A DNA stretch of 64,000 nt from Paenisporosarcina cavernae. Its GTDB lineage: Bacteria > Bacillota > Bacilli > Bacillales_A > Planococcaceae. Made by a program: the position numbers and the translations under genes. The stretch spans positions 508,501-572,500 of the forward strand of contig NZ_CP032418.1 in NCBI RefSeq assembly GCF_003595195.1. The letters are read 5' to 3'. Below, piece by piece: positions 29,573-52,223 of this stretch. Every line of letters begins with the position of its first letter. Position 1 is the first letter of the stretch. Below the pieces are notes generated by a model. It was not told the DNA's origin, made no database searches, and was given only the letters and a program-made list of their open reading frames with translations.

Positions 29573-32281
29573 ATGACAATTCAAGGACAATTGGTTGGAA
29601 GAAAAGGATTTATCGTTTTCGCAGTGTTACTTTTAGTACTTTCGATGGCGTTGCCGTTTCAGGCAAATGCAGAAGGTGAACTTACAGTAGCAGAGGCTAT
29701 TGCGAATAATGATGGTACGGCGACAGTTCAAGGATATATTGTTGGACAAGTTACGAGTACAAATAATGTGAAACAAGATGGAAATTACACGGCAGATACA
29801 AATGTCGCCATTGCGGACGATGCAAGCGAAACGGATACAACGAAAATGTTGTATGTCCAATTACCATCATCATTTCGCGCGCAATTCGGCTTGCAGTCAA
29901 ATCCAGATAATATAGGAAAGAAAATCACGGTAACTGGATCGCTTGAAGCATACTACACGCATCCTGGTCTGAAATCACCTACAGCGATGACATTTGCAGA
30001 TGGATCTGGTGGGGGAGAACCTCCATTTGAACCAATTGATCCGGCTACAGTTCGTGAAATTGGGATTCATGATATCCAAGGAGAAGGGCATATTTCTCCT
30101 TACGCAAACAAAACAGTAACCGGAGTTGTAGGTGTTGTTTCGTTTGTAGAAGACGACCGGAATGTATTCATCCAGGATTTATTCCCAGATAACAATGCAA
30201 AAACGTCGGAAGCTGCACTATTATATAAGCCTGCACACAATTTGCGTGTGGGAGATGTCGTTCTAGTAGAAGGTACGGTAAAAGAATGGGTACTTGAAGG
30301 TTATTCTGACAAATTACAAACCGATTTAAGCATGACAGAAATCAATGCCCAATACGGGAAAGTAACGAAGATTAACACAGCAGAAGTTCCTGCTCCAGTA
30401 ATTATTGGGGAAGATGGACTTATGCCGCCAACGAAAGTAATCGATAATGATAACTTTGGCGAATTTGATCCACAGGAAGATGGTATTGACTTCTATGAAG
30501 CGTTAGAAGGGATGCTAGTAGGGATCGATAGCCCGCAAATCGTTTCTCCTCAAAAATATGGCGAAGTATTCGTCGTGCCAAATGGGACAGATACGTTTTT
30601 CAATGAAAAAGGTGCAATCAATATTTTCGAAGATGATTTTAATCCAGAACGAATCACAGTTGAAACAAGTTCTAATTTTGTTTCAAAAGCGGGAGATCGC
30701 TTTGAAGGGATGGTAGTAGGAGCAGTAAGTTATGGATTTGGTAATTATCAAATTCACACGGGTGGCAATGTGCCTGCTGTCATTGATGGTGGAGCAACTC
30801 GTGATGTGACAGATTTAGTCAAAGATGATGCGAAATTATCTGTTGCATCGTACAATGTCGAAAATTTTTCTGCGAATGAAAAAAATACGTCGGATGAGAA
30901 AGTGGCGCTGATTGCAGAATCATTCGTACACAATCTTCACTCGCCAGACATTGTGTCATTAGTAGAAGTCCAAGATAACAACGGACCGACGGATGATGGG
31001 ACAGTGGACGCAACAGAAAGCTACGAACGTTTAGTTGCAGCAATTGAGGCAGCAGGTGGACCTTCGTATGCTTTCACAGATATTGCGCCTGAAGATAAAG
31101 AAGACGGTGGACAACCGGGTGGAAACATTCGCGTTGGATTCCTCTATAATCCAGAGCGTGTATCCTTAGCAGAAGGCGTTAAAGGAACGGCAACAGAAGC
31201 GGTGGCGTTTGAAAATGGCTCACTAACATTAAATCCAGGGAGAATTGAACCTGCGAACTTCCCGAATACACGGAAATCACTTGCGGCTGAATTTTTATTC
31301 CAAGGAGAAAAAGTAGTTGTCATTGCGAATCATTTGAATTCAAAATCAGGCGATCAATCGCTATTTGGCAAGACGCAACCTCCGTTTTTAGGATCGGAAG
31401 CAGAACGAATTGAATTAGCAACCATGATCCAAAACTTTATCGCAAGCGGCATCGAACAAGATGAAGGCTTAAACGTCATCGTCGCTGGAGATATGAATGA
31501 CTACGAATTCACACCAGCACTAGCGGCACTAAAAGGAAATACGTTAACAAACATGGTCGAAAAAGCACCACTTGAAGACCGTTTCTCGTATGTTTACCAA
31601 GGAAATGCGCAAGTGCTAGACCATATTTTAGTATCAAACAATCTAGCAGATCGTACGGAAATCGACATGGTTCATATGAACTCCACGTTCATGGAAGAGC
31701 ACGGACGTGCATCCGACCATGATCCTGTCTTAATCCAAACGCTATTAACAAAACCAGCAGATGGAATTGTGGAAGAAGATGAAATGGATATCGAGATTAC
31801 ACAAGACGATATTACCATCTCCATTCCTGAAGAAGAATTGTTCGAAGAAACGCGTGTTGAGTTAAGTGAAACTACATTTGCCAACTTTGTAGACTCTGGC
31901 AAAGATGTCATCGTCGACTATGGTGCATTCGAAGCGACATTCGATTCGTCGCAATTAGCAAAAATCGATGCGGCAGTAGATGGAGACATTACATTCACAT
32001 TGGATCAAACAGCAGACGAACACTACGATAAAGGAAAAGCATTAGTAGATCCGTTTGCCTTCTCTGTGGAAGATGAAGCAGGAGAAGACGTATCGATCAA
32101 CTGGACAAAACCAGTTTCCTTCGTCTATGAATTCGAAGAAGCAATTGACGCAAAACACGTCAAAACATTTTACTTGGACGAGCGCGGAAACTGGAAAAAC
32201 GCGCCAGTAACAAGCAAAAATGTACGATGGACATTCCAAGTGAAAAACACGGAAGCAATGACCATCGTGAAAACAAAATAA
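29573..32281 (+). CDS. Secreted multidomain nuclease (endonuclease/exonuclease/phosphatase fold)
   Basis: 902 residues from ATG 29573 (AAAGGAGAGGG upstream). Signal peptide 1-33 ending ANA. Then an OB-fold-like DUF6359-type domain (about 36-140, LTVAEAIANNDGTATVQGYI), a second OB-like domain (about 160-290), and an EEP nuclease domain from about 422 (SVASYNVENFS) through VEVQD (catalytic Glu), VAGDMND and RASDHDPV (about 716, catalytic His). This order resembles YhcR-type extracellular nucleases. Residues about 735-902 form an unassigned C-terminal beta-rich domain. No sortase motif or SLH domain is seen, so it is probably released. Likely role: degrading extracellular DNA or RNA for phosphate and nucleosides. 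Confidence 0.88.
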   Translation: MTIQGQLVGRKGFIVFAVLLLVLSMALPFQANAEGELTVAEAIANNDGTATVQGYIVGQVTSTNNVKQDGNYTADTNVAIADDASETDTTKMLYVQLPSSFRAQFGLQSNPDNIGKKITVTGSLEAYYTHPGLKSPTAMTFADGSGGGEPPFEPIDPATVREIGIHDIQGEGHISPYANKTVTGVVGVVSFVEDDRNVFIQDLFPDNNAKTSEAALLYKPAHNLRVGDVVLVEGTVKEWVLEGYSDKLQTDLSMTEINAQYGKVTKINTAEVPAPVIIGEDGLMPPTKVIDNDNFGEFDPQEDGIDFYEALEGMLVGIDSPQIVSPQKYGEVFVVPNGTDTFFNEKGAINIFEDDFNPERITVETSSNFVSKAGDRFEGMVVGAVSYGFGNYQIHTGGNVPAVIDGGATRDVTDLVKDDAKLSVASYNVENFSANEKNTSDEKVALIAESFVHNLHSPDIVSLVEVQDNNGPTDDGTVDATESYERLVAAIEAAGGPSYAFTDIAPEDKEDGGQPGGNIRVGFLYNPERVSLAEGVKGTATEAVAFENGSLTLNPGRIEPANFPNTRKSLAAEFLFQGEKVVVIANHLNSKSGDQSLFGKTQPPFLGSEAERIELATMIQNFIASGIEQDEGLNVIVAGDMNDYEFTPALAALKGNTLTNMVEKAPLEDRFSYVYQGNAQVLDHILVSNNLADRTEIDMVHMNSTFMEEHGRASDHDPVLIQTLLTKPADGIVEEDEMDIEITQDDITISIPEEELFEETRVELSETTFANFVDSGKDVIVDYGAFEATFDSSQLAKIDAAVDGDITFTLDQTADEHYDKGKALVDPFAFSVEDEAGEDVSINWTKPVSFVYEFEEAIDAKHVKTFYLDERGNWKNAPVTSKNVRWTFQVKNTEAMTIVKTK

Positions 32282-32296
32282 TCTCGATCGTATGTG

Positions 32297-32332
32297 CGCA
32301 CTCTAGTAACTTGCTAGAGTGCGTATTTTATT
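32297..32332 (+). terminator. Terminator of the nuclease gene
   Basis: CGCACTCTAG (32297-32306) and CTAGAGTGCG (32314-32323) pair around TAACTTG, then TATTTTATTT. Confidence 0.85.
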
Positions 32333-32357
32333 TGAAAAGAAAGAATATCGTTTTACG

Positions 32358-32588
32358 GAGAATCGATCACCTACGCCCGAGAATTGATCGTCTGTCTCGG
32401 AGAATCGATCGCCTGCGCCTGAGAATCGATCGTCCACCCGTGAGAATCAATCGTTTGCCGTGGAGAATCGATCGTCCACCCGTGAGAATCAATCGTTTGC
32501 CGTGGAGAATCGATCGCCTAAACTCGAGAATCGATCGTTTACCCCCGAGAATCTATCGTATACACTCTAGAATCGATCCCTTACCGCA
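32358..32588. repeat. Eleven-unit 21-bp tandem array, core GAGAATCGATCG
   Basis: Eleven consecutive 21-bp units. The first 12 bases are strongly conserved (GAGAATCGATCG; variants CAATCG, TTGATCG, CTATCG) and the last nine vary. Units 4-5 and 6-7 are exact copies of each other (32421-32462 and 32463-32504), showing recent duplication. Because 21 is a multiple of three, frames across it stay open, but none has a ribosome site of its own, so I do not call it coding. The 32333-32687 gap otherwise holds only the promoter region of the next gene. Confidence 0.85.
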
Positions 32589-32687
32589 AATTTCGCCAAA
32601 CTCGTCCGTTCGTACTGCTACTCGACAGAGATAGTGTGATAGAATGGTAGAAGATACTATTGTCCGACAAGAAAGGGAATTACTACC

Positions 32688-36696: not shown

Positions 36697-38217
36697 ATGA
36701 GGTTGCAGGTACAGTCATTTGCGATCGTAGCGTTTTGTTCACTTGCATTTTTCGCCTTATTTTTACTCATTTTCAAACCCTATTATTTAGAAGACGCAAA
36801 CGAATTAGATCAGATTGCCTTAGAACGAGATGTCAATCGGTTAAACCGAACACTTGAAAACGACTTGGATTTATTAAAACGACAAACAGTCGATTTAGGT
36901 GTTCGAGACGATGCGTATTTGTATATGCTAGACAAAAACCCTCTATTTATGAACGAGTATTTTACTGGTGATACAATGGAAAATAACCAAATAAATTTAG
37001 TGCTTATGCTGAACGAAAACAATGAATTAGTTGCAGGTAGATACCAGTACAGTGATGTAGAAGATGCCTACTCCGTTACACCGAAATATGCAAACGAACT
37101 TATTCGAGAAATAGAAAACGCGGACAATTCTCTCTCGTATATCCGCACATCAAAAGGACTTTACATGCTTCAAATGAGTCCCATTAAAAAGAGTAATGGC
37201 AAAGGTGACGATGTAGGAGTCATGATCCTTGGGAGATTACTCGATGACCATTATCTGTCCGGGCTTGAACAAAACTTGTCCGTTGATATTGTCGGTTCCA
37301 ACATACAAACGAGCAACAAACCATTGGAAAACACATTTATTCAGAAAAATGAACGAGAACTGATTGGTACAGTCTTTATTCCGCAAAGTGAACGTAACAC
37401 CTATACAGCACTCGAAATAGCACGTGAACGATTGTACTACTTAGAAAAGAAAAGCAATGTAAACGTATTATTCATCTTATTTGGGGTGTTAGTATTAGTC
37501 TACACAGCAGCGATTTTCTTCTTCATGAATCGCTACATCGTTTCCCGAGTGACAAAGCTCTCGACCCATGTAAACAACATTCAACAGAACAAACTCAAAA
37601 CGAAAGCAATTCCACATAGCCACGGAGCAAAAGATGAAATCTTCCTGCTCGAGCGTTCGATCAATCGATTACTCTACACTTTAGAGATGAAACATGAAGA
37701 AATTCAAAACTTAGCGCTATACGACGCATTAACGGGTCTGCCAAACCGAGCAAACATCGAAAGAGAATTTCCGAAATACTTGAAAACAGCCGCAAACATG
37801 CATGTCCTATTCATGGATTTAGATGGCTTCAAAGCAGTAAATGATTCGTATGGACACCGAATTGGCGATACATTGCTAAAAACCATTTCTTTCAAAATTA
37901 AAACCGTCGTCGATAAAGAATTAGGTATCGTCGCTCGAATCGGAGGAGATGAATTTGTCATCTTACTGAAGAACCGCACGAAATCGGATATGGAACGATT
38001 TTTGAAAAAGCTTTACCAAGTTTTAAACGAAACAATCGAAATCGATGGGTACCAACTCACTGTTACACCGTCTATTGGGATCAGCCAATATCCTGAAAAT
38101 GGTGATGACTACGAAGAACTGATCGAACAGGCCGACATGGCTATGTATCAAGCGAAACGACAAGGAAAAAATCAATACGCTTACTTTCAAAAAGAAGGCG
38201 AAATGATTTCCACATAA
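36697..38217 (+). CDS. CHASE4-HAMP-GGDEF diguanylate cyclase
   Basis: 506 residues. TM1 about 6-26, extracellular CHASE4-like sensor about 40-240 (VRDDAYLYM near its start), TM2 about 253-275, HAMP, and a GGDEF domain from about 340 (YDALTGLPNRANIE) with an intact active site RIGGDEF near 414. The inhibitory RxxD motif is not seen five residues before it, so product feedback may be weak. Makes c-di-GMP in response to an external signal. A TATAAT lies at 36653-36658, a plausible -10. Confidence 0.9.
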   Translation: MRLQVQSFAIVAFCSLAFFALFLLIFKPYYLEDANELDQIALERDVNRLNRTLENDLDLLKRQTVDLGVRDDAYLYMLDKNPLFMNEYFTGDTMENNQINLVLMLNENNELVAGRYQYSDVEDAYSVTPKYANELIREIENADNSLSYIRTSKGLYMLQMSPIKKSNGKGDDVGVMILGRLLDDHYLSGLEQNLSVDIVGSNIQTSNKPLENTFIQKNERELIGTVFIPQSERNTYTALEIARERLYYLEKKSNVNVLFILFGVLVLVYTAAIFFFMNRYIVSRVTKLSTHVNNIQQNKLKTKAIPHSHGAKDEIFLLERSINRLLYTLEMKHEEIQNLALYDALTGLPNRANIEREFPKYLKTAANMHVLFMDLDGFKAVNDSYGHRIGDTLLKTISFKIKTVVDKELGIVARIGGDEFVILLKNRTKSDMERFLKKLYQVLNETIEIDGYQLTVTPSIGISQYPENGDDYEELIEQADMAMYQAKRQGKNQYAYFQKEGEMIST

Positions 38218-38264: not shown

Positions 38265-39059
<795 letters not shown>

Positions 39060-40482: not shown

Positions 40483-40510
40483 TAAAAAACCCACTCGAAA
40501 AGAGTGGGTT
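40483..40510 (-). terminator. Terminator of the repeat-peptide operon
   Basis: AACCCACTC (40488-40496) pairs with GAGTGGGTT (40502-40510) around GAAAA. On the minus strand six T follow. It starts 8 bases after the precursor stop. Confidence 0.9.
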
Positions 40511-40517
40511 AGATGAG

Positions 40518-40904
40518 TTAAGTTAATTTGATTGACCATGGTGGTGGATACATTGCGTCCATCGCAACAGTTGATTTTTTAATCGACCAAGGTGGTGGAT
40601 ACATTGCGTCCATCGCAACAGTTGATTTTTTAATCGACCACGGAGGTGGGTACATTGCGTCCATCGCAACATTCGTTTGTTTGATTGACCACGGCGGTGG
40701 ATACATTGCGTCCATCGCGACATTAGTTTGTTTAACAGACCAAGGTGGCGGATACATTGCGTCCATCGCAACATTCGTTTGTTTAATAGACCAAGGTGGT
40801 GGATACATCGCATCCATCGCTACCTCTTTCGGTGCAGTCGAAGCGAAACTAACGGAAACAAATGAACCTAGCAGAATAGCACTTAGTACAATCTTTTTTT
40901 TCAA
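40518..40904 (-). CDS. Secreted precursor with six tandem 17-residue peptide repeats (putative pheromone precursor)
   Basis: 128 residues. The signal peptide MKKKIVLSAILLGSFVSVSFA is followed by STAPKE and six head-to-tail repeats of VAMDAMYPPPWSIKQTN. VAMDAMYPPPWS is invariant in all six and the next residue is I or V; the last three positions vary (QTN, KST; the final copy ends KLT). The 51-bp DNA units differ at synonymous sites, for instance in all three Pro codons, which points to selection on the peptide. TTG start, with TAGGAGGA 8 nt upstream; that site overlaps the stop of the TPR gene 11 nt before. A signal peptide plus repeats separated by variable linkers, downstream of a TPR receptor, is the plan of Phr/PapR-type pro-peptides, except that those normally hold one copy. 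The mature form, the protease and the importer are unknown. A secreted structural repeat protein is the alternative. Confidence 0.75.
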   Translation of the reverse strand: MKKKIVLSAILLGSFVSVSFASTAPKEVAMDAMYPPPWSIKQTNVAMDAMYPPPWSVKQTNVAMDAMYPPPWSIKQTNVAMDAMYPPPWSIKKSTVAMDAMYPPPWSIKKSTVAMDAMYPPPWSIKLT

Positions 40905-40915
40905 TATTGTTCCTC

Positions 40916-42115
40916 CTATAAAGTTAGTAGCTGTTTAATATATTTAGATGACTCTAACAGCATTTTCGAAGCTTCTTCGAATCGCTCTTGAGACACATAA
41001 AACTGACCGATATGGTTATAATAATAACCTAATTCATAAAGATGATTTCCTTCAATCATAATTGGCATCAAGTCACTAAAGAATAAGTTCTCGTATGCTT
41101 CAAAATCTTTTTTTGAATAATTTTCAAGGATCTTTAGCTCTATATATGCCTCGTATGTATCGCGGTGGGTATTCTTATCAATCTCAACATCAGAGATGAG
41201 ATTGTTTGCATTGTACATCCACTTAAACACCGACTGCATATCATTTAATTCTAAATACGCTTTGATTAATGTAATAATGCTTTTTAATTTACTTATCGCG
41301 TATTCATCTGGTGTCGCTTTTAAAGAATTCATAATATGCTCAATCGATTTCTCATAATTTTGGAACTGAAAGTAAATATAACCACAGTTGTATTCTGTCG
41401 CGAATTTGAGATGTGGAGAATTTGTTTCCGCACCCGTTTTTTGCGCAGTTAAATTATGATCGATGGCAGTTTTGAAATTTCGTAATTTTAATTGTGTAAT
41501 TCCAAGATTCACATGGCATTCTGCAATGCGCCTTGGTATAAATTCACGTTGATAGATTTCAAGAGCTCGGTATGCATACTTAAGACTTAGGTCAGGTTCC
41601 CAACAGTGATTAGCTGCCATTGAAATGACATAACAAATATCACCTTCTTCTAGTGGAGGAAGTGAATATGCATAGTTCTTATCGGCTTCTAAATAACAAT
41701 CTAATGCATCCGGATATTTCCCTTGAGAGTAATAGTAATTCCCGAGATGTTTAAACCAAAAATACTGTGTCTCTGTCGAATACTGTCTATACGTATCTTT
41801 GTGTTTATCAATTAATTGAACAGCATTTTCAAAATCACCATTTACGACAAAAAACCGGATTTTCTGAATATCAAATTCAATTTTCTGTTTCTCCAAAAAT
41901 TTACTTTGGTGAAACTCTACGATGTGTACATACTGGTCTAGCATTTTTTTTCGGTCTACGATGCCACTGATGATTTCTTTAAATTTGTCTAATTCAATCT
42001 GAGCAGGGTTATCTAACAAATCATAATCGATTTCTTTCGCAAGCTCATTTTTGATCAATGTGGCTCCTTCTCGACCATTTACATAAGATCTGACTGGTCC
42101 AAATCTTCTCGACAT
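40916..42115 (-). CDS. TPR-repeat protein, putative RRNPP-type peptide receptor
   Basis: 399 residues from the ATG at 42115 (GAGGTG upstream; the ATG at 42127 overlaps that site). After about 85 N-terminal residues come successive TPR-like helix pairs, for example WFKHLGNYYYSQGKYPDALD, AECHVNLGITQLKLRNFKTA, NCGYIYFQFQNYEKSIEHIM and YYNHIGQFYVSQERFEEASK. No helix-turn-helix is evident at the N-terminus, so unlike PlcR or NprR it probably does not bind DNA but acts on a protein partner, as Rap proteins do. Similarity to Rap is only in architecture. It is cotranscribed with the repeat-peptide precursor. The effector is not encoded next to it. Confidence 0.75.
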   Translation of the reverse strand: MSRRFGPVRSYVNGREGATLIKNELAKEIDYDLLDNPAQIELDKFKEIISGIVDRKKMLDQYVHIVEFHQSKFLEKQKIEFDIQKIRFFVVNGDFENAVQLIDKHKDTYRQYSTETQYFWFKHLGNYYYSQGKYPDALDCYLEADKNYAYSLPPLEEGDICYVISMAANHCWEPDLSLKYAYRALEIYQREFIPRRIAECHVNLGITQLKLRNFKTAIDHNLTAQKTGAETNSPHLKFATEYNCGYIYFQFQNYEKSIEHIMNSLKATPDEYAISKLKSIITLIKAYLELNDMQSVFKWMYNANNLISDVEIDKNTHRDTYEAYIELKILENYSKKDFEAYENLFFSDLMPIMIEGNHLYELGYYYNHIGQFYVSQERFEEASKMLLESSKYIKQLLTL

Positions 42116-42174
42116 AAGGCACCTCATTCGTTAATAAAATATCTTCCTTTCTTATGATATCTAATCTGGATATA

Positions 42175-43133: not shown

Positions 43134-43272
43134 ATTAGTAAACAATTAATTCGTTTTTAATTGGAATAAAAATCCAAAAAATTTACCTAATAAAATCCAA
43201 AATAATTGTGTCAAAATTTAGTTTTCATGGTATATTTATGTCATCATAATAGTTCTATTGGAGGACGAGTTA

Positions 43273-45348
43273 ATGGGCCAAACGATTGCGATAATACATA
43301 TGGACATTCAACGAAAACAGCTTAGCCCACTACTCGACCGCATTTCCGTTCTCTCCAAACTGTCAAAACAAGACACGACCCTCCTATGGCAAAAATCTGC
43401 CAATCCTCACTACACTCCTTTCCAGATGATCATTGATGGCGATTCTTATGAAGTCACAATCGGAAGTACTCCGAGTGGGAATAATTTCGCTGTTTTGGCT
43501 GCACTCGAAGAGCTTGCTTTGAAATCGCTTTTTGATATCGAATCCACAATGCGCGATCAACAAATGAAAATTTTCGAATTGGCAAAATCTCGTGAAATTA
43601 CGAGCGAATCGCTTTCTGACACGATTGAAAATATATGCGAAACAATTGCACAATTGATCGATGTCGATCGCGTGGGTATTTGGTTATTTGATGATTGTCA
43701 GAAAAAACTCATCGCGCAGAACATCTTTGATGCACGTTTTCATTCCCACGTTTACGGGGAAGAGTTACACAAAGTGCTGTATCCGACATACTTCGATGCT
43801 TTTCAAAATGCGCGTGCAATCGCCGTGCATGATGTATCAACTGATGCGCGAGTGAGCGAATTATATCCAGTCTATTTTGAAATGATGGGTGGCATTCAAT
43901 CGATGTTGGATGCACCGATCATGATGAGTGACGGGATAGGTGGAGTGTTGTGTTGCGAATCTGTTCGAAAACGGACATGGACAGAGCTCGATCAAACTTT
44001 AGTGGGAACTTTGGCAGACATGGTCGCGTTTTTGTATGAGCGACTTCATCGACTAGAAGCAGAAACGCGTATTCAAGAACTCGCATTCGTCGATCAACTG
44101 ACCGGTTTGCCGAATCAGCATGCATTCGTTGATCAAGTCACGCGTGATTTAGGTGAGTTTAACGCGGGCAAATTTCTTTACTTAAATATCGACCAATTTT
44201 CGACCATTCAGGAAGTGCTCGGTTTTGATGGAGGCGAATCAGTGTTAAAAGAAATTTCGGAACGTCTACAAACGAAGTTTCCTGATCCCAATTGCGTCGC
44301 TCGAATTGGGATGGATCACTTTATTCTTTATTTGAATGGAAATGAAGTCTCCGACTATGAAACAAAATTAGTAGATTTAAAAAAACCGCTACATATAAAA
44401 GGAGAAGAAGTGTACATCACCTATAGCTACGGAATGTCCATCTTTCCAGAGCACGGCAGCACGCCAGAGGAATGCTTGCAGAGCGCGCAAATCGCGTTAA
44501 GCTACGGCAAAAAAATTGGATCTCGTAGTATCTCATCCTTTTTTAATCCGTACATGCGCGAAATAAGTGAAACCACCTTACATACGGAAATAAATCTGCG
44601 AAAAGGACTCGACATGAACGAGTTTCGATTATATTTACAGCCGCAAATGGATTGTATACGAAACAAGATAGAAGGATTCGAGGCACTCATCCGTTGGAAT
44701 CATCCGGAGAAAGGACTCATTGCACCTGTGGAATTTATTTCCCATGCAGAATCTACAGGTTTAATCCTTCCGATTGGAGAATGGGTCATTCGCCAAGCGT
44801 TTACTCAACTTGCAAAATGGAAAAAAAGCGGTCAAACTTCAATGACATTGTCCATCAATGTGTCGCCACGCCATTTCTTACACGAAAAACTCGTGCCATT
44901 TTTGGAAATGTGCTTAGAAACGTATGATATTATGCCTGAGCAGCTCATCATTGAAATAACTGAAAATGTCGCAATGGGAGACTACTTAGCAGCCCAAAAA
45001 AGGATTATTGAATTACGTGAATTAGGCTTTTTAATTAGCATTGATGACTTTGGAACCGGATTCTCAGCCTTCGTCTACTTGCAACACTTTCCGATCGACG
45101 AAATCAAAATTGACCGTCGATTCATCCGCGAAATTGAAGAAAACGACAAAAGCTTAGGTATCGTCAAGACAATCATTGATCTTGCGAAACTTCTCAACCT
45201 ACGCGTAATAGCGGAAGGAGTCGAAACAATCGAACAGCTTAACTTGCTGCGATCCATCGGTTGCAAAACGATACAAGGGTATTACTACGCACGCCCAATG
45301 CCAAGTGAAGAAGTGGAAGAATGGATGGGTACGAAAACGACAAATTAA
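43273..45348 (+). CDS. GAF-GGDEF(degenerate)-EAL c-di-GMP phosphodiesterase
   Basis: 691 residues from ATG 43273 (GGAGGACG upstream). An N-terminal 100-residue region, a GAF domain (about 106-260, VDRVGIWLFDD), a GGDEF domain whose active site reads RIGMDHF (about 346), so cyclase activity is unlikely, and an EAL domain with FEALIRW (about 470), LIIEITEN, SIDDFGTGFSAF (about 591) and AEGVET. The EAL residues look complete, so c-di-GMP hydrolysis is expected, perhaps with the dead GGDEF domain binding GTP as an activator. No TM: cytosolic. Confidence 0.88.
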   Translation: MGQTIAIIHMDIQRKQLSPLLDRISVLSKLSKQDTTLLWQKSANPHYTPFQMIIDGDSYEVTIGSTPSGNNFAVLAALEELALKSLFDIESTMRDQQMKIFELAKSREITSESLSDTIENICETIAQLIDVDRVGIWLFDDCQKKLIAQNIFDARFHSHVYGEELHKVLYPTYFDAFQNARAIAVHDVSTDARVSELYPVYFEMMGGIQSMLDAPIMMSDGIGGVLCCESVRKRTWTELDQTLVGTLADMVAFLYERLHRLEAETRIQELAFVDQLTGLPNQHAFVDQVTRDLGEFNAGKFLYLNIDQFSTIQEVLGFDGGESVLKEISERLQTKFPDPNCVARIGMDHFILYLNGNEVSDYETKLVDLKKPLHIKGEEVYITYSYGMSIFPEHGSTPEECLQSAQIALSYGKKIGSRSISSFFNPYMREISETTLHTEINLRKGLDMNEFRLYLQPQMDCIRNKIEGFEALIRWNHPEKGLIAPVEFISHAESTGLILPIGEWVIRQAFTQLAKWKKSGQTSMTLSINVSPRHFLHEKLVPFLEMCLETYDIMPEQLIIEITENVAMGDYLAAQKRIIELRELGFLISIDDFGTGFSAFVYLQHFPIDEIKIDRRFIREIEENDKSLGIVKTIIDLAKLLNLRVIAEGVETIEQLNLLRSIGCKTIQGYYYARPMPSEEVEEWMGTKTTN

Positions 45349-50228: not shown

Positions 50229-52223
50229 TCACAGTACGTTCTTCACAAACCGTCTCTCAAACTCATCCACATCTAGTGCACGATCCACCAAATAGCCCTG
50301 CACAATCGCACACCCATTCTCCCTCAAAAACTGAACCTGTTCCTCCGTCTCCACACCCTCTGCCACAACCTCACAACTCAAACTCTCCGCCAAATGAATA
50401 ATCGACCGTAAAATCGCCTCACTCTTCGGATCATTCCCAATTCGATCTATAAAAAAACGATCAATCTTCAACCGGTCCACCGGAAAATAACTCAAATACG
50501 ACAACATCGAAAACCCAGTCCCAAAATCATCGATTGCTATACTCACACCAGCATCCCGACACCGCACAATATTCCCAAGTGTAATCTCAGATGTCACCAT
50601 CTCCGTCTCCTCGGTTACCTCTAACTCAATCATCGAAGACGGAATCCGAAAACGCTCCAACAAATCAAACAAATCATCAAAAAACGACTTCTGCGTCAAC
50701 AAATACGGTGTAATATTAATCGCCACCTTCTTATCAAACCCGTCCTGGCGAATCCAACGCGACACCCGCGCAAAAACCTCTGCGAACAAATGCTGCGTCA
50801 ACTTCAAAATATTCCCCGTATCCTCCGCGATGCCGATAAACTCCAACGGCGAAATCTCACCGAGCGTCGGGTGACGCCAACGTGACAACACTTCAAATCC
50901 ATAAAGTTCATCTTTTACCGTATCCCACTGCGGCTGCAACACAAAGTAAATCCCGTGGTCACGCAAATCGTCCCCAAGCTCTTGTTCAATCAATAACCTC
51001 CGGGCAATCTCCGTCTTCATCGACGGATGATAAAAAGCATAACTATTCCCGCGCATTCGCTTCGCTTGATACATCGCTGTATCTGTCGCACTCATCAACT
51101 CATCAAAATTCTTCCCGTCATTCGGATAAATCCCGATTCCGATAGAAGCCGACACGCTAAACGAAAAATGGGAATCGAGCACAATCGGTTGATGAAACAA
51201 ATCGAGCACTTCATTCGCAAACCGCCTCAACGCTTTTCGCTCCGACTCATTTACCGCGATTAAAAACTCATCGCCACCGAGACGTGCAATAAACGCCTCA
51301 CTGGACAAATGTTGTTGTAACTTTTGTCCAACTCGCTGCAGCACCAAATCGCCTTTTTCATGCCCATACACATCATTTACATTCTTAAAGCCGTCCAAAT
51401 CGATGAACAAAAGCGAACACGCTCGGTCTTCGGCCAATTTCTTACGAACCATCTCATGAATGGACCGACGATTCGGCAAATCCGTCAAATCATCGTAATA
51501 CGCAAACATTTTCAACCGGTCTTCCGACATTTTTTTTTCGTTTATATTTTGGAAGTAAACAGAAATTCCTCTACCAGTAGAAGGGTAGGCGTTGACTTGA
51601 AACCATGTATCCAACGGTCCATAATACTCCTCAAAGGAAGTCGAAATGCGTTGATGCAGCGTCTTTTGATAATTAGAATAAAAGAGCGACTCTACCGCTT
51701 CGGGGAATTCCTCCCACACATTTTTATGTAATAATGTTCCTTTTTCTCGTTCCAATACGTCATAAGCTGCACTATTTAAATACTCGAAACACCAATTGTC
51801 GTCTAGTGCAAAAAAAGCGTCCGTCATCGATTCCAACACGCTATTCATCGATTTTTCCGTTTCCAGCACTTTTGTCACATTTTCATGTCGAATCATCAAC
51901 AGCTGTTCGTCAATTTTCGTCACGGTCATCAAATACCAACGCTGCTCGGTGGGGGAGTGACACGGATACTCCAGATTGAATGTTGAAATACTTCCTTCTA
52001 TGACGCTTCGAATACCATTTGCTTCATACACCGCATCACTTTTTTCTAGCATTCGAAGATAATTCACTCCGACAGATGCTTTCGACGCATCGCCACCATT
52101 TTCGATACGAAACCGTTCCCATGCTTCATTCACAAAAAGAATCGTACCAGAAGTATCGATCACCGCCACCATGTCAGGCAGTGACTGCAAAATGCCAACG
52201 GACTCTTTCTCAAGTGGTCCCAT
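50229..52223 (-). CDS. PAS-PAS-GGDEF-EAL dual-domain c-di-GMP protein, in operon with comK
   Basis: 664 residues, cytosolic. Two PAS domains (about 8-120, MVAVIDTSGTILFVNEAWE; about 125-240, DAFFALDDNWCFEYLNSAA), a GGDEF domain with intact RLGGDEF, and an EAL domain with GFEVLSRW (EVL in place of EAL), MIELEVTEETE, AIDDFGTGFS and AEGVET. Either activity is possible; EVL variants can still be active. GGGAGGG precedes ATG 52223 and overlaps the stop of the ComK-family gene 11 nt upstream, so the two are read as one operon. Confidence 0.88.
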   Translation of the reverse strand: MGPLEKESVGILQSLPDMVAVIDTSGTILFVNEAWERFRIENGGDASKASVGVNYLRMLEKSDAVYEANGIRSVIEGSISTFNLEYPCHSPTEQRWYLMTVTKIDEQLLMIRHENVTKVLETEKSMNSVLESMTDAFFALDDNWCFEYLNSAAYDVLEREKGTLLHKNVWEEFPEAVESLFYSNYQKTLHQRISTSFEEYYGPLDTWFQVNAYPSTGRGISVYFQNINEKKMSEDRLKMFAYYDDLTDLPNRRSIHEMVRKKLAEDRACSLLFIDLDGFKNVNDVYGHEKGDLVLQRVGQKLQQHLSSEAFIARLGGDEFLIAVNESERKALRRFANEVLDLFHQPIVLDSHFSFSVSASIGIGIYPNDGKNFDELMSATDTAMYQAKRMRGNSYAFYHPSMKTEIARRLLIEQELGDDLRDHGIYFVLQPQWDTVKDELYGFEVLSRWRHPTLGEISPLEFIGIAEDTGNILKLTQHLFAEVFARVSRWIRQDGFDKKVAINITPYLLTQKSFFDDLFDLLERFRIPSSMIELEVTEETEMVTSEITLGNIVRCRDAGVSIAIDDFGTGFSMLSYLSYFPVDRLKIDRFFIDRIGNDPKSEAILRSIIHLAESLSCEVVAEGVETEEQVQFLRENGCAIVQGYLVDRALDVDEFERRFVKNVL

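Follow-up and report, generated by a model that had tools for sequence, protein, structure and literature searches.

What kind of gene encodes the same short peptide several times in succession, and what such a peptide might do, is the question raised by this locus. The window, that is the whole stretch of 64,000 nucleotides that was analysed, contains on its minus strand a tandem array of 51-bp units, which a preliminary description attributed to a processed active peptide repeated between cleavage linkers. This observation is real, and the interpretation, right in kind, finds support and can be stated more precisely. The array very probably belongs to a quorum-sensing pair of the RRNPP kind, in which a multicopy pheromone precursor with six copies of one peptide is combined with a TPR receptor. 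The grounds are the gene layout, the constraint on the repeats, the predicted fold of the receptor, its conserved Asn, the presence of permease binding proteins and the conservation of the pair in Planococcus. The features of the locus are as follows.

42115..40916, minus strand: RRNPP-type TPR peptide receptor, 399 residues from the likely ATG at 42115 (403 from 42127), assigned by Pfam TPR matches, a PDB profile match to NprR and Rap, and a model with fold search
40917-40912, minus strand: AGGAGG ribosome site of the precursor gene, read from the sequence, overlapping the receptor stop codon
40904..40518, minus strand: predicted multicopy pheromone precursor gene, 128 residues, TTG start at 40904, stop at 40520-40518, recognised by its open frame, the AGGAGG, a signal-peptide-like start and six units
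40839..40904, minus strand: putative Sec-type signal peptide of about 22 residues (KKK, a hydrophobic stretch, SFA near the end), delimited by eye from the translation
40521..40823, minus strand: the six repeat units together, each with the predicted peptide MDAMYPPPWS or part of it
40823-40773, minus strand: repeat unit 1
40772-40722, minus strand: repeat unit 2
40721-40671, minus strand: repeat unit 3
40670-40620, minus strand: repeat unit 4
40619-40569, minus strand: repeat unit 5
40568-40521, minus strand: repeat unit 6
40488..40510, minus strand: terminator-like hairpin 3' of the precursor gene, 9 pairs and a T tail, from a consensus scan

The array is delimited by Tandem Repeats Finder at 40527-40820 (5.8 copies, 88% matches, score 406) and occurs once in the genome, as seen by a DNA search of its single contig of 2,537,131 bases. 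The 12-residue sequence VAMDAMYPPPWS is identical in all six units with differing codons, the variation affecting Pro, Ser, Val, Tyr, Asp and Ala. From the first unit to the last, the Pro triplet is written CCA-CCA-CCT, CCG-CCA-CCT, CCA-CCG-CCG, CCA-CCT-CCG, CCA-CCA-CCT and CCA-CCA-CCA, a series that includes the three triplets cited earlier. The residues I/V-K sit between the core and a linker that does change in amino acid, being QTN in the first three units, KST in the next two and a terminal LT in the last. Any two units differ at 3 to 7 of 39 bases, so no fresh copy is present among the six. The absence of recent slippage, as previously proposed, is therefore true of this array; it is not true of the family, whose arrays gain and lose units and are in some cases almost homogenised. 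The interval given in the preliminary description, 40524-40835, covers the repeats and leaves both the signal peptide and the receptor gene outside.

A separate observation concerns an inverted repeat of 5 pairs (TTGCGTCCATCGCAA, plus strand), found within the VAMDA codons of five units between 40553 and 40771 of the window, with one of the five slightly different. The Ala and Asp codons at this place hardly vary, unlike the Pro codons. It may be an mRNA hairpin or a chance occurrence.

The receptor gene ends 11 bases ahead of the precursor start on the same strand, and its ATG is preceded by GAGGTG, which resembles a ribosome site. A sequence search of the PDB with the receptor returned Rap3T, RapJ and RapF first, while the family profile had NprR as its best natural match (E 9e-18), surpassed by one engineered TPR protein. 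The AlphaFold2 model, built from 38 sequences, is helical throughout (mean pLDDT 83.5, pTM 0.74), with nearly all of residues 1-34 below a pLDDT of 50. It superimposes on RapI with a Z score of 31.1 over 351 residues, residues 36-399 aligning with RapI 14-374 at an rmsd of 4.8, and on NprR with a Z score of 29.9 over 349 residues and 16% identity in the structural alignment. The model helices at 37-51, 55-68 and 75-91 were examined as part of this whole-model alignment with RapI; a three-helix bundle ahead of the TPRs is described in NprR as well (PMC9765709). The first ten ranks of the fold search are all Rap or NprR entries (Z of at least 27.1) and the TPR protein LGN comes next at 25.4. Certain Rap structures do not exceed LGN (RapH 23.0, RapF with ComA 23.5), which weighs against the proposed pair. 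Among viral structures, only generic repeat proteins were retrieved with the receptor model. In the profile alignment, the Tyr-Asn pair of RapF falls on a Tyr-Asn pair of the family, Tyr 242-Asn 243 of the 399-residue receptor. This Asn 243 is invariant in the 38 aligned receptors, and its RapF counterpart, Asn227, is reported to make a hydrogen bond with the peptide and to be strictly conserved across the RNPP superfamily (PMC3601957).

The pair is not limited to this genome. With a threshold of E 1e-20, the receptor was matched in 51 of 261 genomes of the family, the window genome included, and in 5 of 19 genera; the order-level search gave the same 261 genomes. A single genus, g12, contributes 46 of the 51 and is taken to be Planococcus/Planomicrobium, the names borne by all 37 loci of the alignment search. 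Of the 58 loci read, two were second copies of a place (L042, L100) and one had a broken receptor frame (L092), leaving 55 distinct places with the window included. At 51 of these, the receptor is followed by a precursor of the PW type, 49 of them in g12, one in g5 (L019) and one in the window. The remaining four places are either cut by a contig end (L088), masked (L089) or occupied by a single-copy precursor of another kind without PW (L093, L099). The 51 precursors contain up to 14 units, and 40 of them exceed 100 residues, taking the first start codon of each frame as their beginning. Species differ widely in copy number, and at the DNA level some arrays are almost identical. On the receptor tree, the peptide types are clustered (23 changes for a shuffled mean of 31.1), with the exception of type IPEPWA; the window receptor sits on a very long branch (3.6), which makes its placement uncertain.

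Within g12, five genomes carry a second, diverged pair (L094-L098), whose receptor shares 26-28% identity with that of the window and whose precursors contain HPNPWS, HPSPWS or WPQPWS. The other eight genomes of the window genus gave no receptor match at E 1e-20, and at E 1e-5 they yielded proteins of 21-26% identity which are of the helix-turn-helix type by eye. At 6 of the 11 loci read there (L006, L008-L012), such a same-genus HTH-TPR receptor is directly followed by a single-copy precursor of 40-48 residues of another kind. Back-translated patterns revealed no close receptor relative in the genome contigs, although the alignment search did find relatives. Viral contigs gave no match for the precursor or for the receptor alignment, phage records gave none for the receptor, and plasmid records contained receptor relatives at 20-31% only. 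A precursor match in G063 lies opposite another gene with repeats, in antisense, and was discarded on visual inspection; a weak one was recorded in G203.

These arrays allow the constraint on the repeats to be measured. Units were located by the pattern [PT].PW, degenerate ones (in L036, L086 and L097, for example) thus going uncounted; the core was defined as positions -6 to +1 from the Trp and the linker as +2 to +6. Since the units were located by the residues P, P and W, these anchors were excluded from the core counts. The only one-unit array, at a contig end (L029), was left out of the pair counts, which rest on 50 arrays, and another contig-end locus (L101) was left out of the between-genome set of 49. 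In the genome studied here, the 15 unit pairs (10 where only five full units reach) carry 31 synonymous and 0 nonsynonymous differences in the core, against 16 and 23 in the linker. Within the 50 arrays, the core shows a pS of 0.298 and a pN of 0.010 (ratio 0.034), the linker a pS of 0.195 and a pN of 0.049 (ratio 0.25), and the stretch before the core a ratio of 0.039. Pair counts within a genome are not independent; compared by genome, linker pN is higher than core pN in 32 cases, lower in 7 and equal in 11 (sign test, p 7e-5). The 7 arrays of 50 in which the core varies more than the linker weigh against the pair. The comparison of units, suggested in the preliminary description as a check, thus argues for a processed active peptide separated by linkers.

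The comparison between genomes points in the same direction. Averaged over the 49 arrays, the difference per residue amounts to 0.34 for the core and 0.75 for the linker; by arithmetic, the core value rises to about 0.54 without the three anchor positions, so that the linker excess is real and smaller than first apparent. The core too changes between lineages, as pheromones do, more slowly than the linker. Its difference tracks that of the receptor (r 0.68, 49 arrays), which was counted in favour of the pair, and the linker difference does so as well (r 0.51, same arrays), which was counted against it; shared descent alone could produce both correlations.

The numerous constrained units also mark the borders of the peptide better than a single-copy precursor can. 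A dipeptide [VFLIM]A, for which the residue set was picked after inspection of the sequences, lies 8-10 residues before the end of the core in 262 of the 265 units that follow a first unit. It ends at -9 from the Trp in 174 units, at -8 in 15 and at -7 in 73, leaving 10, 9 or 8 residues up to the one after the Trp; the three units without it are found in L016, in L017 and at a masked stretch of L091. This length shifts even inside one array with the dipeptide kept, from 8 to 10 in L085 and from 9 to 10 in L027 and L031. The repeat periods likewise range from 12 to 18 residues and vary within single arrays (L016, L017, L027, L036, L085), a 21-residue step in L091 being the masked stretch and not counted. 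The dipeptide is thus likely to mark the N-terminal cut. A comparable spacer, LKLA, precedes the second ERPVGT of the phi105 precursor, from which peptides are freed by extracellular proteases (PMC11343458). The units compared contain no constant motif for the C-terminal end of the peptide, and a basic cut site shared by the linkers was looked for and not found, residue +3 being K, G, E, Q or others. For the protease sites whose prediction had been asked for at the linker boundaries, the units give a candidate on the N-terminal side and none on the C-terminal one.

From these elements, a pathway can be proposed for the peptide, in which export, cutting, uptake and binding are predictions drawn from sequence. 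The receptor and the precursor would be co-transcribed, which is probable because of the 11-base spacing and the one terminator-like site behind both. The signal peptide would direct export of the precursor, which would be cut outside the cell both after [VFLIM]A and within the linker. Each precursor would in this way release up to six identical peptides, about 8-10 residues long (MDAMYPPPWS or a shortened version). An oligopeptide permease, for which two binding proteins of the SBP_bac_5 family are encoded in the genome, would take the peptide back in, and it could then bind the concave face of the TPR receptor.

The receptor of the window is peculiar in one respect. Pfam, a profile of its relatives and the AlphaFold2 model all fail to detect a helix-turn-helix in it, and the frame is closed by a TAA one codon ahead of the ATG at 42127. 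Pfam HTH_3 is present in 30 of the 38 receptors scanned, the window protein not being among them, and a helix-turn-helix start (pattern of the G.R.KYHR type) was recognised at 53 of the 55 distinct other places read, the remaining two being of this type by eye. Rap proteins likewise have no helix-turn-helix, NprR being defined by an N-terminal one. The closest receptors found are nevertheless not Rap proteins: they are of the DNA-binding type, at 32-37% identity, from g12 plus one from g5. The loss is therefore either a second one of this kind or the mark of a gene on its way out. This missing domain, which implies a different output or a decaying gene, was counted against the pair. If the gene is decaying, its DNA-binding part would have been removed by mutation and the precursor would be a leftover or a signal for other cells. 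The helix-turn-helix present at the other places, the low confidence at residues 1-34 and the eight genomes of the genus without the pair agree with decay, which is unlikely all the same given that the 399-codon TPR frame is open behind its GAGGTG, the invariant Asn is kept and the six peptide cores are strongly constrained at the protein level. Moreover, no degraded helix-turn-helix was detected upstream in the three frames of the receptor strand: one had seemed apparent by eye in one frame, and the profile of the relatives' domain matched only residues behind it. Since frame, Asn and peptide cores are all kept, a working protein is favoured. By analogy with Rap receptors, a receptor without a helix-turn-helix would most likely act by binding another protein. 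An independent conversion of the Rap kind, in which a DNA-binding receptor of the Planococcus type lost this domain and acts by protein contact with its pheromone gene intact, is possible, if rather doubtful. Were it true, a further lineage would have taken the step proposed for Rap, the only RRNPPA members without a helix-turn-helix according to PMC9765709, which traces their loss of it to an NprR-like ancestor. With the short receptor, the way in which peptide receptors lose DNA binding can be put to the test.

The repeats themselves might be explained without any signalling. A secreted structural or adhesive repeat protein, working uncut, would agree with the single-sequence model of the precursor, whose repeated short strands, of low confidence and not plain disorder (mean pLDDT 64.3 for the best of five models, 40-52 for the remaining four), weigh against the pair. 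Such a protein is nonetheless highly improbable, since the period changes even inside arrays while core and VA dipeptide stay in register, the number of copies varies, reaching 14, and a peptide receptor accompanies the gene at 51 places. Multicore secreted precursors also exist for antimicrobial or otherwise bioactive peptides, and a Pro- and Trp-rich core would fit such a product, possibly modified. Against it, Pfam shows no peptide-modifying enzyme among the twelve flanking proteins (two of them without any match), the only export-related one is HlyD-like and 6 kb away, and the regular companion of the gene is a TPR receptor in which the Asn that anchors the peptide is present; there is thus very little chance that the array releases a peptide of this sort. 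Plain replication slippage, leaving repeated residues without function, would account for the wide differences in copy number between species and for the nearly identical DNA of some arrays. It is contradicted by the core pN/pS of 0.034 over 50 arrays and by the complete lack of nonsynonymous core differences in the genome here, and its probability is practically negligible.

The quorum-sensing pair can be compared with several described systems. NprR-NprX has the same arrangement of a TPR receptor with the precursor gene directly behind, and 17 of 17 atypically large NprR precursors carried repeats (PMC9765709); the window differs by its receptor without helix-turn-helix, its 16% identity and its peptide of the PxPW type. 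The Rap-Phr systems, including those of phages phi3T and phi105, resemble it by the absence of this domain and by the alignment of residues 36-399 with RapI. The Phr of phi105 has two ERPVGT copies where the window precursor has six, and its LKLA spacer has the same hydrophobic-Ala ending as the window family (PMC11343458). With the nearest relatives of the window receptor being of the DNA-binding type, its loss of the domain looks independent of that in Rap. The candidates of RRNPP_detector similarly consist of a receptor adjoining a small secreted protein, searched between 10 and 100 residues (PMC10075063). The 128-residue window precursor exceeds this limit and, with 40 of 51 precursors above 100 residues, the default settings would probably miss most of the family.

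Multicopy RRNPP precursors are published, and the kind is therefore already known. Up to six identical copies are given for AimR, NprR, PlcR and Rap in the survey of PMC9765709, where NprR is reported in 21 genera, and precursors with 1 to 4 repetitions are mentioned in PMC11343458; both sources have the multicopy precursors cut by extracellular proteases. Literature searches lying mostly outside subscription journals found no Planococcus system of this sort among the papers listed, the string 'Planococc' is absent from the main texts of PMC11343458, PMC9765709, PMC10075063 and PMC12700828, and a search by peptide strings gave no relevant paper among the matches listed. As far as these searches show, the PxPW-type precursor family and its higher copy numbers are new, with up to 14 copies for six in the survey, and so is the receptor without helix-turn-helix, seen only in the window among the places read. 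For a bacterial group in which the searches showed no described system of this kind, a probable signalling peptide can thus be named together with its receptor.

The genomic site was also compared within the genus. The pair is flanked by genes of the copC-copD type and of the puuD type, the latter before the receptor. In G003, these flanks lie 0.1-0.3 kb apart without the pair, the copC-copD frame itself being broken, and in G007 a single small gene (acetyltransferase-like by eye) stands between them. Two of the eight other genomes of the genus thus have close flanks and no pair, which means that it was gained here or lost there. In Planococcus maitriensis (L114:4170-4928), a puuD-like gene, identified by eye, is found behind the precursor in another orientation than in the window. 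No Rfam family was detected in the 64,000 nucleotides, and a sigma-70 scan gave 6 sites for 8.9 in shuffled sequences, with no convincing one upstream of the receptor. The genome encodes Spo0A. Around the pair, within 16 kb, there are three cyclic-di-GMP proteins, one of them GGDEF and two GGDEF-EAL (36697-38217, 43258-45348 and 50229-52223). At 38265-39041 lies a collagen-repeat protein with a BclA C-terminal match under the Pfam cut-off, of a kind that occurs on spore surfaces. Finally, another array of about 10 copies of a 21-bp unit (GAGAATCGATCGTCTACCC type), with a higher order of 42 and 63 bp, occupies 32358-32578 within an open frame at 32227-32634.
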